From the NCBI RefSeq assembly GCF_000244895.1, contig NZ_CM001441.1, forward strand, positions 4,926,198 to 4,990,197: a stretch of 64,000 nt of DNA, written 5' to 3'. Made by a program: the position numbers and the translations under genes. This DNA comes from Desulfosporosinus youngiae DSM 17734. Its GTDB lineage: Bacteria; Bacillota; Desulfitobacteriia; Desulfitobacteriales; Desulfitobacteriaceae. This document shows positions 21,978-30,811 of the stretch, piece after piece; positions within the stretch are counted from its first letter, which is position 1, and every line of letters begins with the position of its first letter. The notes under the pieces are model-generated. The model saw nothing but the letters and a program-made list of their open reading frames with translations, had not been told where the DNA came from and ran no database searches.

Positions 21978-22190
21978 ATTAAAAAACTCTCACCCCCGTA
22001 GCATTTTTATGCTACAGGGACGAGAGTTTGTTCCCGCGGTTCCACCCTGTTTGACCCCATAGGGTCCCCTTCGTTTCCTATGCTCAGAGCTGCCCCATTC
22101 ACTGCTCCCGTTCGGCTTCCACCCGCCCGAACTCGCTGATAGAGAGAATTCGCGAACTTTTTTCTCGTCATCACATCAAAGGTATTAATT
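21978..22190 (-). promoter_or_regulatory. T-box riboswitch, glycine type, upstream of glyQS
   Basis: On the minus strand the leader contains GGTGGAACCGCGGGAAC, the T-box sequence, followed by a terminator stem (AACTCTCGTCCC ... GGGGTGAGAGTT and T run near 21982). The bulge UGGA can pair with UCCA, the 3' end of uncharged tRNA-Gly with its U discriminator base, which agrees with the downstream glyQ. Uncharged tRNA-Gly should favour the antiterminator and switch on glyQS. I did not assign the specifier codon with certainty. Confidence 0.9.
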
Positions 22191-22244: not shown

Positions 22245-23471
22245 TTATAAAATTTCGTTGATCGTTTGCCAGGCAGCTTCCATGGTTGCCGTATCAAGTC
22301 TGGCATTTGCCGTCTCAGGTTTAAACATGAGCGAAAACTCTTCGCCGGCCTTGGTTTTCTTTGCGGAATAAAAATCGCTATCGATAGGAATAGCCCCCAG
22401 ATCCAGGAAGAAAGGTTTCCTGTCATCGAGATGTTCCATATTCTTCCTGACCTCAAGGAGAATCCCTTCGATCTCAGGATGTTTCTTTTCAAGGAACGTC
22501 CTGACCCTATGGAATAGAAAGCCTCCGATACCCCTGGCTTTATATTCAGGAGTAATCCCAAGGTGCTCTAAATAGCCCATTTTCACGTTTGGCATCCAAT
22601 AGAAACAGGCGATTCCGAAGACTTTTTCATTTTCTTGAGCGGTCAGCAGATAATATTTGTTGGGGGCGATAGACTTAGGATTCAGTAGTTTATCCCGGAT
22701 TTCTTCTTGTACAGATTCAGGGTATTCAAACACTGATCCCATTAGTTTAATGCCCGCTTGAGTATAGTAACCGTTGGGGTCCTTGCCTTCAACAAATTTA
22801 ATATTATCGGTATCAATTTCCAGAACATTACCACAATCATCCCGGATAATTATCTCCTTATGGATGATCATGGCCATATCTCCCGTGTCTGCAAAGGCAG
22901 CATTAGCCTCATCCGTATCTATATGGAATTCAGTAACTCCATCATCTACCAGACGAACTGTAACATCATGATAGGAAACTATTTTTTCCCCTTTGAGTAA
23001 AATGCTGACTTTATCTGAATCAGTAAGGTCCAAGCGTTTTGCAGTCTTAGACAGCATATGTACATGTGCTTTAGCAATAATACAGCCGTGATCCAGTACT
23101 ACGACCCCTTTAGGTCCGATAAGTACTGCTCCTGGGGTACCAACTAAATCGCCGGAATCCCGCAGAGGTGCATCAATCCCTAAAGGATATGTCTCTGTGC
23201 GCGACAATTCGATTTGACTTTCAGTACGATTTGGTCCGATAATTCTGACCTTTTCCAAAACTCCTTTTGTCCCTACGACATTGACAGTTTCTTTAGCAGC
23301 AAATTGACCTGCCTGCCCTAGATCCCGCAGCACGGTCAGCTCACTGCCCTGTCCGAATAATATTTCCATATGTTCACGAGTAAGATGGACATGTGCCCTG
23401 GAAACTCCCACCATAACAAGCCATTTCGCTTCTTGCTTAAAGTCTACTTTTTTAGGATCACTCATTTCCAT
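22245..23471 (-). CDS. PduL-like phosphate acyltransferase fused to GNAT domain
   Basis: A 408-residue fusion. Residues about 15-210 are PduL-like: VGVSRAHVHLTREHMEILFG with the first metal-binding His motif, GPNRTESQIELSRTE, and the second motif AKAHVHMLSKTAKRLDL. PduL moves acyl groups between phosphate and CoA, giving acetyl- or propanoyl-phosphate for ATP. Residues about 260-400 are a GNAT fold (MGYLEHLGITPEYKARGIGG, FLFHRVRTFL), which may modify a protein using the acyl-CoA. The partner of the acetyltransferase part is unknown. It is a single gene. Confidence 0.85.
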   Translation of the reverse strand: MEMSDPKKVDFKQEAKWLVMVGVSRAHVHLTREHMEILFGQGSELTVLRDLGQAGQFAAKETVNVVGTKGVLEKVRIIGPNRTESQIELSRTETYPLGIDAPLRDSGDLVGTPGAVLIGPKGVVVLDHGCIIAKAHVHMLSKTAKRLDLTDSDKVSILLKGEKIVSYHDVTVRLVDDGVTEFHIDTDEANAAFADTGDMAMIIHKEIIIRDDCGNVLEIDTDNIKFVEGKDPNGYYTQAGIKLMGSVFEYPESVQEEIRDKLLNPKSIAPNKYYLLTAQENEKVFGIACFYWMPNVKMGYLEHLGITPEYKARGIGGFLFHRVRTFLEKKHPEIEGILLEVRKNMEHLDDRKPFFLDLGAIPIDSDFYSAKKTKAGEEFSLMFKPETANARLDTATMEAAWQTINEIL

Positions 23472-26422: not shown

Positions 26423-27358
26423 TTATCCCTTTTCCTTTCCATAGCCATAATTACGCAAGCTGTCCGGCCGGTTGCGCCAGTCCTTCTTGACTTTGACCCA
26501 CAGTTCTAAAAACACCTTGCTGCCCAGCAAAGCTTCTATATCTTGCCGGGCCAAACGACCGATCTCTTTAAGCTGAGCGCCCCCTGACCCGATGATAATT
26601 CCTTTCTGAGATTCCCGCTCAACGATAACCAGAGCGCGCACCTTAACTAACGTTTTCTTTTCTTGAACCTCTTCAATCACCACAGCAATCGAATGAGGAA
26701 CCTCATCCCGGGTCAGCTGAAGTACCTTTTCGCGCACCAATTCAGCCATAATGAAACGCTCAGGCTGGTCGGTCACTTCATCCTCCGGATAATACATCGG
26801 ACCCTTGGGGAGTTGAGCAAAGATCACCTTCAGCAGCTCATTGGTATTTTCCCCCGTTTTTGCAGAAATAGGCACAATAGCCTTAAAATCTGCCAGCTTG
26901 GAAAACTGCTGAATTTTAATCATTAACTGCTCTTTCGTTAATAAGTCGACTTTATTCAAAGCCAATACACAGGGAGTCTTCGTTTGCTTGAGCATCTCAA
27001 TGATAAACTCTTCCCCCGGACCAAAGTCAGAAGACAGATCCACCATATAGAGGATCACATCCACCTCCCGCATGGATTCCTTGGCCGTCCCAACCATGAA
27101 TTCGCCAAGCTTATGCTTTGGCTTATGTATGCCGGGGGTATCCAGAAAAATGATTTGTCCCCGTTCCTCCGTCAGGATACACTGGATTCGATTACGCGTG
27201 GTCTGAGGCTTATCGGACATGATCAACACTTTCTGTCCTAATAAATGATTAAGCAAGGTCGATTTCCCTGCATTCGGTCTGCCAATCACAGACACAAAGC
27301 CTGAACGAAATTCACTTTTCGAAACCAACGATGAAGTCACTTCCCTATCTTTCAGCAT
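26423..27358 (-). CDS. era: GTPase Era
   Basis: A 311-residue GTPase needed for 16S rRNA maturation and 30S assembly. G1 GRPNAGKSTLLNHL, G2/G3 IIFLDTPGIHKPKHKLGEFM, G4 LNKVDLLT, and the KH RNA-binding domain with IIIGSGGAQLKEIGRLARQD. It heads an operon with deoC and recO. A degenerate glycine-type T-box lies 100 bases upstream. Confidence 0.97.
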   Translation of the reverse strand: MLKDREVTSSLVSKSEFRSGFVSVIGRPNAGKSTLLNHLLGQKVLIMSDKPQTTRNRIQCILTEERGQIIFLDTPGIHKPKHKLGEFMVGTAKESMREVDVILYMVDLSSDFGPGEEFIIEMLKQTKTPCVLALNKVDLLTKEQLMIKIQQFSKLADFKAIVPISAKTGENTNELLKVIFAQLPKGPMYYPEDEVTDQPERFIMAELVREKVLQLTRDEVPHSIAVVIEEVQEKKTLVKVRALVIVERESQKGIIIGSGGAQLKEIGRLARQDIEALLGSKVFLELWVKVKKDWRNRPDSLRNYGYGKEKG

Positions 27359-27940
27359 TAATTTTTTATGTAGTCTATATTACCTTATCCTTAACTAATA
27401 ACGTCTATTCAGCACCCATTATGGAACCCTCATTCTTAACCGCCTCTAGGCCTCTAATTCAAAAAGCCCTCACCCCTGTAGCATTTTTAAGCTACTGAAG
27501 CGGAGCTTATTCCAGCAGTTCCACCTTTTTAATCCCTGAGGATCCACTTCGTTTATGTGCTCAGAACTACCCATCCACTTCTCATTCGGCTTCCACTCAT
27601 CCAAAATCATATAGAGAAGATTCACAAAACTCTCCCATCATATATTATAAGGCATTTATTGCAATAATTATATGCTGAGGGAGAAATCGTGTCAAATTTT
27701 AACCCCCCACCTTAAGGAGATTTAACTGCATGATTTGAATGGGTAAATACTATTGGGTTGTAATTGGAAGTTATAGTATAAAATTCAGAGTTATCAATAG
27801 CTAAAGTTGAATAATTGAAAGATTTCCGATCATTTTGCCTTTGCACCGTTATTATAAGACGTGATAAACTACAGGCAACTTTACAAAATCGACAAAGTTG
27901 TAAGATAGTGTAATTAATATGAGGGCATTCATAAAAGGAG
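27359..27940. other. divergent spacer between era and opuC operon
   Basis: It holds the second T-box-like leader (27461-27655, minus strand), a copy of the short motif ATTATGGAACC at 27419, and an A/T-rich part (27660-27935) in which the plus-strand opuC promoter must lie. No gene is supported. Confidence 0.5.
27461..27655 (-). promoter_or_regulatory. degenerate glycine-type T-box leader upstream of era
   Basis: On the minus strand this sequence aligns along its length with the glyQS leader: shared GTGGAAGCCGAA, GTGGATGGG, AACGAAG, GTTTTT-type end and ATGCTACAGGGGTGAG terminator arm. The T-box itself reads GGTGGAACTGCTGGAAT instead of GGTGGAACCGCGGGAAC: the UGGA bulge that pairs with tRNA is kept, but the antiterminator helix has changed. 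The first gene downstream is era, which is not a usual T-box target. It is probably a copy in decay. Confidence 0.7.
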
Positions 27941-29080
27941 GTGTTTAAAATCATAAGATTTGACAAAGTCTCTAAAATATTCTCAGACGGGTTTCAAGCT
28001 TTAGATAACATATCTTTTCACATTGATAAAGGGGAACTGTTTGTAATAATCGGGCCCAGCGGCTGTGGTAAAACGACCACCATGAAGATGATTAACCGAT
28101 TAAACGAACCGACAACAGGTACAATATGGATAGACGGCAAGGATATTAGCAAGGAAAACCCTGTCGAATTGCGGCGTAATATCGGGTATGTTATCCAGCA
28201 CATTGGACTCCTGCCCCATATGACAATTGGCGAGAATGTCGCCTTAGTACCGAAACTTAAAAAAATGAATGCTTCAAGCTATCTGAAAAGAGTCGATGAT
28301 CTTTTATCTATGGTCGGCTTAGATCCGGATACATATCGTGACCGTTATCCCGCAGAATTAAGTGGCGGCCAACAACAAAGGGTAGGGGTTATTCGAGCAC
28401 TGGCCGCCGAACCGCCAGTTATTTTAATGGATGAGCCATTTAGTGCCTTAGATCCGATCAGCCGCGAACAACTGCAGGACGAGCTTATCAGGCTGCAACA
28501 GGAAATAAAGAAAACTATTGTCTTTGTCACTCATGATATGGATGAAGCCCTTAAAATTGCAGATCGTATTTGTATTATGAAAGACGGCAAGATAGTTCAG
28601 TTAGCTAGTCCAGAACATATCTTGCGTCATCCGGCCAATGATTTTGTACACTCGTTTATCGGAGAAGACAGACTAAATGCCGCAGGTATCCTTCCTGATG
28701 TTGAAGATGTAATGGTTAAGCCAGTAACAGCCGGTCCTAACCGTGGCTTGGCAGAGGCTATCAAACTAATGCATAAATATAAAGTTGACAGCTTGATCAT
28801 AACTAAATCAGGAAATAAATATCTGGGTATTGCCAAAGCATGGGACATCCAGCAACACTACCGTGACGAAACTTTAACTCTCCAGGATATTATGCTGAAG
28901 GATTTTCCAACCATTCAGAGAGACCGGCCCTTAAGCGAGGCCTTAGAAGTCATCAGTGAAAATAAAGTGTCCAGCCTGCCCGTGCTCAGCGCTGCAGGGG
29001 AGCTGGCAGGTGTTATTACCAGAGCGAGTTTAGTCGATGTCATGGCAGATAAATACCGAAATGGAACAACGGATTCCTAG
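27941..29080 (+). CDS. opuCA: osmoprotectant ABC transporter ATP-binding protein (OpuCA type)
   Basis: A 379-residue ATPase for glycine betaine/choline-type uptake. Walker A GPSGCGKTT, signature LSGGQQQRVGVIRALA, Walker B VILMDEPFSALDP, and two C-terminal CBS domains (residues about 250-370) that sense ionic strength in this family. The in-frame GTG at 27941 lies within the ribosome site AAAGGAGG; the family's normal start (M-I-R-F) falls on ATC at 27950, 8 bases after that site. First gene of a three-gene plus-strand operon. Confidence 0.93.
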   Translation: MFKIIRFDKVSKIFSDGFQALDNISFHIDKGELFVIIGPSGCGKTTTMKMINRLNEPTTGTIWIDGKDISKENPVELRRNIGYVIQHIGLLPHMTIGENVALVPKLKKMNASSYLKRVDDLLSMVGLDPDTYRDRYPAELSGGQQQRVGVIRALAAEPPVILMDEPFSALDPISREQLQDELIRLQQEIKKTIVFVTHDMDEALKIADRICIMKDGKIVQLASPEHILRHPANDFVHSFIGEDRLNAAGILPDVEDVMVKPVTAGPNRGLAEAIKLMHKYKVDSLIITKSGNKYLGIAKAWDIQQHYRDETLTLQDIMLKDFPTIQRDRPLSEALEVISENKVSSLPVLSAAGELAGVITRASLVDVMADKYRNGTTDS

Positions 29081-29091
29081 AAAGGAGAGCC

Positions 29092-29724
29092 ATGGAAATA
29101 TTCAAAATTTTCCAAGAACGATGGCCGGCTATCGTTACAGCTTTCGGTGAGCATATTCAGTTAACATTTGTCGCCCTCTTTTTTGCGATTAGCATTGCTG
29201 TTCCGTTAGGAATTGTATTAACCCGTTATCGCAAATTAGCCGAGACAATCATCGGTGTGACAGCAGTAGCACAAACAATCCCCAGCCTTGCTCTGCTTGG
29301 TTTGATGATTCCCCTACTGGGCATTGGATTTGTTCCTGCTATTGTGGCATTAACAATTTACGGATTATTGCCTATCGTACGTAACACATATACAGGTATA
29401 GTAGGAGTAAATCCGGCTGCTATTGAAGCAGGAATCGGCATGGGAATGACTTCAACTCAGGTATTATTTATGGTGGAAATGCCTCTGTCTCTCTCTGTTA
29501 TTATGGCAGGCATAAGAACCTCAACTGTTCTTATCGTAGGGGTTGGCACTCTTGCCGCTTTAATTGGAGCCGGAGGTTTGGGAGATCTGATTTTTAGAGG
29601 GATTTCGATGTCAAGCAATGAACTGATTCTGGCAGGGGCCCTCCCAGCCGCACTGTTGGCTGTAATTTTCGATTATTTGATCAAACGGATTGAGATTAGG
29701 GTAACTCCTAAAGGCAGCAGGTAA
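29092..29724 (+). CDS. opuCB: osmoprotectant ABC transporter permease (OpuCB type)
   Basis: A 210-residue inner-membrane permease with five to six helices and the coupling loop EAGIGMGMTSTQVLFMVEMP that contacts the ATPase. AAAGGAGAGCC precedes the ATG, 11 bases after opuCA. Only one permease gene is present; systems of this type often have two (opuCB and opuCD), so this one would work as a homodimer. Confidence 0.93.
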   Translation: MEIFKIFQERWPAIVTAFGEHIQLTFVALFFAISIAVPLGIVLTRYRKLAETIIGVTAVAQTIPSLALLGLMIPLLGIGFVPAIVALTIYGLLPIVRNTYTGIVGVNPAAIEAGIGMGMTSTQVLFMVEMPLSLSVIMAGIRTSTVLIVGVGTLAALIGAGGLGDLIFRGISMSSNELILAGALPAALLAVIFDYLIKRIEIRVTPKGSR

Positions 29725-29777
29725 ACTGGTCTAAAAAATATTATTGAGATAATTATAAGTTTGGAGGAGGATAACTC

Positions 29778-30677
29778 ATGAAAAAGGCAAAAAAATATGG
29801 CATTTTAGCATTTGTGTTATTATTGGCTCTTAGTTTAGTAGGTTGCTCAGCCAAAACCGAAGCAGGGGACACCATAAAAATTGGCGGAAAGAACTTTACG
29901 GAGCAAGACATTTTGGTTCACTTAATGGCTGGAGTAGTTGAGGCTAAAACTGATCTTACAGTCGAAACTAAACCCTGGCTTGGAGGAACAATGGTTGCGT
30001 CAAAGGCATTAGATAATGGGGATATTGACATTTATGCAGAATATACCGGTACAGCTTTGATGGTTCAACTTGAACAAGAGCCAATGACCGACCCGGTTGC
30101 CGTTTATGATAAGGTAAGCAAAATGTACAATGAGAATAAGAACATTACCTGGCTGGAACCTTTTGGTTTTAATAATACTTACACAATGAGCATGCGTAAA
30201 GCAGATGCAGAAAAGCTGGGTATTGAAACTTTCAGTGATCTTGCTAAGCAATCAACTAATTTATCATTGGTGGTTGAGGGCGAATTCTTTGAACGGGAAG
30301 ACGGATATAAAGGACTTCAGAAAATGTATGGCATGAACTTTAAGGCTACGAGTGCAATGGATGCGGGCTTAATGTACGGTGCCGTCAAAGACGGTAAAGC
30401 AGACGTGTTGGATGCTTTTGCTACCGATGGAAGAATTGTGGCGTTTGATCTGAAAGTTCTAAAGGATGATAAGCAGTTTTTCCCACCCTATTACGCCGCT
30501 CCGCTCGTGCGTAATGATACATTAGCCAAACACCCTGAGCTTGCAGATGCTCTCAACTCTTTGGCAGGCAAACTCGATGATGCAGCAATGCAGCAGCTTA
30601 ACGCTAAGGTCGACCTGGACAAGCAATCATCTAAAGATGTTGCCAACGAGTGGCTAAAAGCCCAAGGTTTGATTTAG
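29778..30677 (+). CDS. opuCC: glycine betaine/choline-type substrate-binding lipoprotein
   Basis: A 299-residue lipoprotein: a signal peptide ending LALSLVGC with the lipid-bearing Cys at residue 23, then the OpuAC fold (IKIGGKNFTEQDILVHLMAG, TVETKPWLGGTMVASKALDN, GDIDIYAEYTGTAL). Tyr and Trp residues in these strands form the aromatic cage for quaternary amines. GGAGGAGG precedes the ATG. A strong terminator follows at 30700. Confidence 0.93.
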   Translation: MKKAKKYGILAFVLLLALSLVGCSAKTEAGDTIKIGGKNFTEQDILVHLMAGVVEAKTDLTVETKPWLGGTMVASKALDNGDIDIYAEYTGTALMVQLEQEPMTDPVAVYDKVSKMYNENKNITWLEPFGFNNTYTMSMRKADAEKLGIETFSDLAKQSTNLSLVVEGEFFEREDGYKGLQKMYGMNFKATSAMDAGLMYGAVKDGKADVLDAFATDGRIVAFDLKVLKDDKQFFPPYYAAPLVRNDTLAKHPELADALNSLAGKLDDAAMQQLNAKVDLDKQSSKDVANEWLKAQGLI

Positions 30678-30737: not shown

Positions 30738-30811
30738 TGTCTAAACCATGCACATCAAATGTGCCTTCTCCCGAGTAACATTATCCTCCGTCACAAGCCC
30801 CGGGCGCTGTG

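Follow-up and report, generated by a model that had tools for sequence, protein, structure and literature searches.

A putative glycine T-box leader upstream of era in Desulfosporosinus youngiae is very probably a stranded relic of a glyQS leader

The closest described system to the leader reported here is the glycine T-box of glyQS (Rfam RF00230; B. subtilis and G. kaustophilus). The leader, which precedes era, resembles it in having a Stem I with a Gly specifier, no Stem II, a Stem III, the UGGA sequence and an overlapping terminator. Published work on T-boxes reports an invariable UGGN next to helix A1 and a Stem III that cannot be dispensed with (PMC7583486), and the published terminator-antiterminator difference of glycyl T-boxes is −20.1 ± 4.6 (PMC3375634). 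The copying of T-boxes and their insertion as a module is also already known, in cases that stand before amino-acid-related genes and were read as regulatory (Wels et al. 2008, PMC2494555). Among the results listed, literature searches gave no paper linking a T-box to the control of era, and nothing relevant on T-box decay.

The window analysed here is a stretch of 64,000 nucleotides from the genome of D. youngiae DSM 17734 (G000), a single-contig chromosome of 5.66 Mb. Its minus strand reads ybeY-dgkA-cdd, then an ABC cassette on the plus strand, then leader-era-deoC-recO-UBA/DUF4342-NUDIX-PTAC/GNAT, and finally the glyQS leader, glyQ and glyS. The gene era (minus strand, 26423..27358) encodes the Era GTPase (NCBIfam PRK00089.1, 401 bits); its true start is probably the TTG at 27328, behind AGGGAAGTG, since the upstream ATG at 27358 was not conserved in the genus alignment. 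The PTAC-GNAT fusion upstream of glyQS (22245-23471) joins a phosphate propanoyltransferase domain to a GNAT acetyltransferase; it was present in G000, G016 and G026, and the regions examined in other relatives lack it.

On the minus strand, 27700 to 27461 proved paralogous to the T-box leader of glyQS, promoter included. The leader itself (27461..27655, ∼190 bases) aligned with the intact glyQS leader 5.5 kb downstream (minus strand, 22013..22180), as the original prediction had stated, and the similarity ran on upstream through the promoter. By blastn, it matched the glyQS leader of its own genome with 72% identity (100 bits, E = 1e-21) and those of congeners with up to 78% (178 bits, E = 4e-45), indicating that the resemblance is not due to chance. 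The era leader was thus more similar to the glyQS leaders of other species than to that of its own genome. The homology to the glyQS leaders of the genus included a sigma-A-type promoter, TTGACA-17-TATAAT (minus strand, 27667..27695), which matched the consensus at 12 of 12 positions and aligned with the glyQS promoters of relatives. This promoter was copied along with the T-box. The specifier GGU (Gly) was located at 27571-27569, at the position occupied by GGC in the own glyQS leader and by GGC, GGU, GGA or GGG in the glyQS leaders of relatives. In several glyQS leaders, L060 and L090 of G016 and L068 of G027, the distance from promoter to Stem I is ∼65–115 bases longer, their T-boxes being otherwise intact.

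The cassette next to the leader is of the opuC/osmF type, consisting of an ATPase, a permease and a substrate-binding protein (plus strand, 27941..30677), and is divergent from the leader. A close form of it occurs in few congeners. In G001 and G017 it stands divergently and directly against a functional glyQS leader, and in G000 and G016 it stands against era. The N-terminus of proV, the intergenic DNA and the promoter could be aligned end to end between the era loci of G000 and G016 and the glyQS loci of G001 and G017, which demonstrated that cassette and leader form one block. A similar terminator followed opuAC in both G000 and G016. In the era block of G016, the sequence from the start region to the terminator loop is missing, and with it the whole tRNA sensor; the promoter remains, together with a hairpin (−18.2 kcal/mol) and its T-run. 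G012 (L102, 8675-9834) showed the cassette at a third position within this neighbourhood: a fragment of opuAC there is flanked on one side by recO and on the other by a second copy of the recO 3′ end, the flank being duplicated.

The upstream region of era was then compared among relatives, as had been proposed with the original prediction. Where relatives lack the cassette, cdd is the immediate upstream neighbour of era, separated from it by repeat elements at most, and there is no T-box. No full T-box was found at era in the other Desulfosporosinus with an intact upstream region that were examined, G016 having the sensor-less remnant described above. When 49 other relatives were scanned upstream of era for the T-box core, the closest matches had three mismatches and stood outside any leader-like context; the core of the era leader in the window itself scores three mismatches because it has drifted. 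A GC-rich repeat element, GTCGCTTGAACGGAAGTTTGCT..CTGCTTACGTAAAGACGTCG, was observed at 30749-30804 and also upstream of era in relatives (e.g. L022 and L023), and many congeners carry it in intergenic regions of the same neighbourhood.

The homology, the block linkage, the absence in relatives, the lost constraint, the broken antiterminator and the deletion in G016, all read from sequence, point to one explanation that we hold with considerable confidence: the element upstream of era is a stranded, non-functional relic of a glyQS glycine T-box leader, and a bystander of module shuffling. An opuC-type cassette would have been inserted between cdd and era, bringing the adjoining glyQS promoter and T-box with it. 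The direction of this move, from the glyQS side to era, is suggested rather than observed. At era, the T-box would have had no reason to sense glycine, and its switching parts would have been lost, through mutation in the window and, in G016, with the deletion of the entire sensor. The imported promoter followed by a default terminator is probably still working; at any level of glycine, RNA polymerase from this promoter would usually be halted by the residual terminator, and most transcripts would end before era. It is most likely that the era leader has no tRNA response. Counting against a relic, the GGU specifier, UGGA, Stem III, distal Stem I and the terminator are still present, and the promoter is perfect.

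It is most likely that era is transcribed from its own promoter-like block just downstream of the relic. This block, CTGAATAGACG..TTAAGG (minus strand, 27389..27412, reaching ∼27380), lies 3′ of the relic terminator and was identified by genus-wide conservation. In the form TTGAATAGACG...TTAAGGTTATGG it precedes era in most of the genus, also where cdd abuts era. Its conservation and place suggest that it is a promoter. In the window, the block survives at 27412-27380 with two substitutions, the presumed −10 changing from TTATGG to ATAAGG. Written as (T/C)TGAATAGACG..TTAAGGTTATGG, it is kept across most Desulfosporosinus whatever the upstream DNA, with an unusual −35/−10 spacing of ∼19.

The two changes in the native block of this species leave some room for a capture of the imported promoter. 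The cassette would have split era from its upstream operon, and the strong imported promoter would have been retained for the expression of era. The T-box would only be tolerated, and the weakened terminator would let some of the transcripts through. Such a capture is compatible with the relic reading and concerns only which promoter feeds era. A consensus promoter persists in both G000 (12/12) and G016, next to a sensor that is decaying in the one and deleted in the other, and the terminator of the era leader is ∼10 kcal/mol weaker than that of glyQS. However, both G000 and G016 still have a terminator with a T-run (−18 to −22 kcal/mol), G016 having even re-formed one, and the native block is otherwise conserved. 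We regard the capture as possible, though rather unlikely.

The leader could also have arisen by a simple local duplication of the own glyQS leader, independent of the cassette. The AU test did not reject a clade of the era leader and its own glyQS leader (p = 0.14), and AU tests on the leader tree rejected no alternative donor (p = 0.05–0.23). Nevertheless, the leaders of other species matched the era leader better (178 versus 100 bits), and the best leader tree placed it within a group of G001, G013, G017, G018 and G021, apart from the glyQS leaders of G000 and G026 (87/91 support). In addition, the intergenic DNA between cassette and leader is common to the window and to G001 and G017. In the cassette tree, built to see whether G000 and G016 share one insertion, G000 was placed outside G001, G016 and G017, so that the two era loci may go back to one move or to more. 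The linkage of the era leader to the cassette is evident from the aligned sequences, and a duplication independent of it seems improbable.

A third possibility is a functional, divergent glycine T-box, in which uncharged tRNA-Gly would bind GGU and UGGA, transcription would enter era, and ribosome assembly would be coupled to glycine supply, as suggested in the original prediction. In favor of it, the Gly specifier and UGGA are kept, the terminator and promoter are intact, and both distal Stem I and Stem III still pair, with one compensated change (C-G to U-A) in Stem III. The residual intrinsic terminator (minus strand, 27461..27508), a hairpin with a T-run, was missed by the terminator pattern scan and found by folding, with an energy of −21.8 kcal/mol versus −31.4 in glyQS. 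Yet the Rfam T-box model, a check proposed with the original prediction, gave no match to the era leader even at E ≤ 10 (1.2 kb searched), whereas the glyQS leader of the same genome was found with 58.2 bits and E = 6.9e-12. The T-box core (minus strand, 27514..27527) was changed from the canonical AGGGTGGAACCGCG to AAGGTGGAACTGCT. This change, the retained UGGA tetranucleotide and the GTAGC/GCTAC terminator arm were all as originally described. In the bulge, UGGA is kept but ACC is changed to ACU, and helix A1 is reduced to two G-U pairs; this essentially complete loss of A1 is in contrast to the published rule. Five nucleotides of the GCGATGATG strand were deleted at the base of Stem I and basal pairs were lost, so that the kink-turn (GA) motif is absent. 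By folding, the canonical antiterminator had an energy of +3.1 kcal/mol, compared with −7.6 kcal/mol in glyQS, and therefore no stable antiterminator opposes the terminator. A constrained fold of the era leader reached −5.8 kcal/mol, but without the flanking A1/A2 pairs, which is thus not a canonical antiterminator; the terminator energies obtained alongside it for some relatives were truncated by the interval folded and were left aside. The terminator-antiterminator difference, about −25, falls only a little outside the range published for glycyl T-boxes; it is the positive antiterminator energy and the lost constraint, not this difference, that carry the argument.

Among 113 columns invariant in the other leaders, 22 were changed in the era leader (19%), versus 0–3% in each glyQS leader; its differences from the nearest leaders affected 19.5% of the invariant columns and 26.8% of the variable ones. 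On the Rfam structure of the glyQS leader, 32 pairs were counted as universal because 26 or more of 27 glyQS leaders retain them. Nine of these were broken in the era leader, located in the K-turn strand, basal Stem I and helices A1 and A2, and glyQS leaders broke none or one. When the era leader's own 33 substitutions and 13 deleted columns were placed at random, 9.7 ± 2.5 universal pairs were broken (P(≤9) = 0.47). In the window, the terminator was retained no better than when the same changes were randomly placed (fraction 0.19); in G016, the result was borderline (fraction 0.05). These results agreed with the original description of a drifting, glycine-type copy, the core and pairs decaying as random mutation predicts, and no sign of conservation or purifying selection as a T-box was seen in the era leader. 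It appears from this one sequence that the leader is under no measurable constraint, and a recent or weak function may remain. The T-box at era is conserved in no relative, and the sensor is deleted in G016. With a broken antiterminator and no full T-box in relatives with an intact upstream region, the proposed coupling of era to glycine was not borne out, and a functional T-box is very unlikely here. Equally doubtful is the idea that, in this species alone, era is still weakly controlled through tRNA-Gly, which would be an otherwise unknown coupling between glycine charging and ribosome assembly.

The least probable explanation, also raised in the original prediction, is a remnant of an ancestral joint era-glyQS operon once starting with this T-box: all relatives examined for this region have era, recO and glyQS as neighbours, but relatives of the same gene order lack a leader at era and have their glyQS leader at glyQS, and the era leader is accompanied by the ABC cassette, which abuts the glyQS leader elsewhere, and by the intergenic DNA of that cassette.

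The relic reading offers a natural case of a riboswitch that was the passenger of a moving gene cassette and then decayed at an off-target gene. Three stages would be represented within one genus, namely the cassette beside a working glyQS leader (earlier), the drifting leader of the window and the deleted sensor of G016. An annotation of this leader as regulation of era should be avoided, and, as a caution, a T-box-like leader is not to be read as control of the next gene without a test of constraint.

Compared with the glyQS T-box, the element differs in that it precedes era, that A1/A2, the K-turn strand and several Stem I pairs are broken, and that it has no Rfam match. The cases of Wels et al. 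(2008, PMC2494555) and the era leader have in common that a T-box copy was inserted before another gene. In those cases the target is related to the specified amino acid, whereas era is an unrelated target and the copy is decaying. The era leader varies the known modularity of T-boxes in a modest but instructive way, as a copy that decays next to a moving cassette and in front of an unrelated gene.
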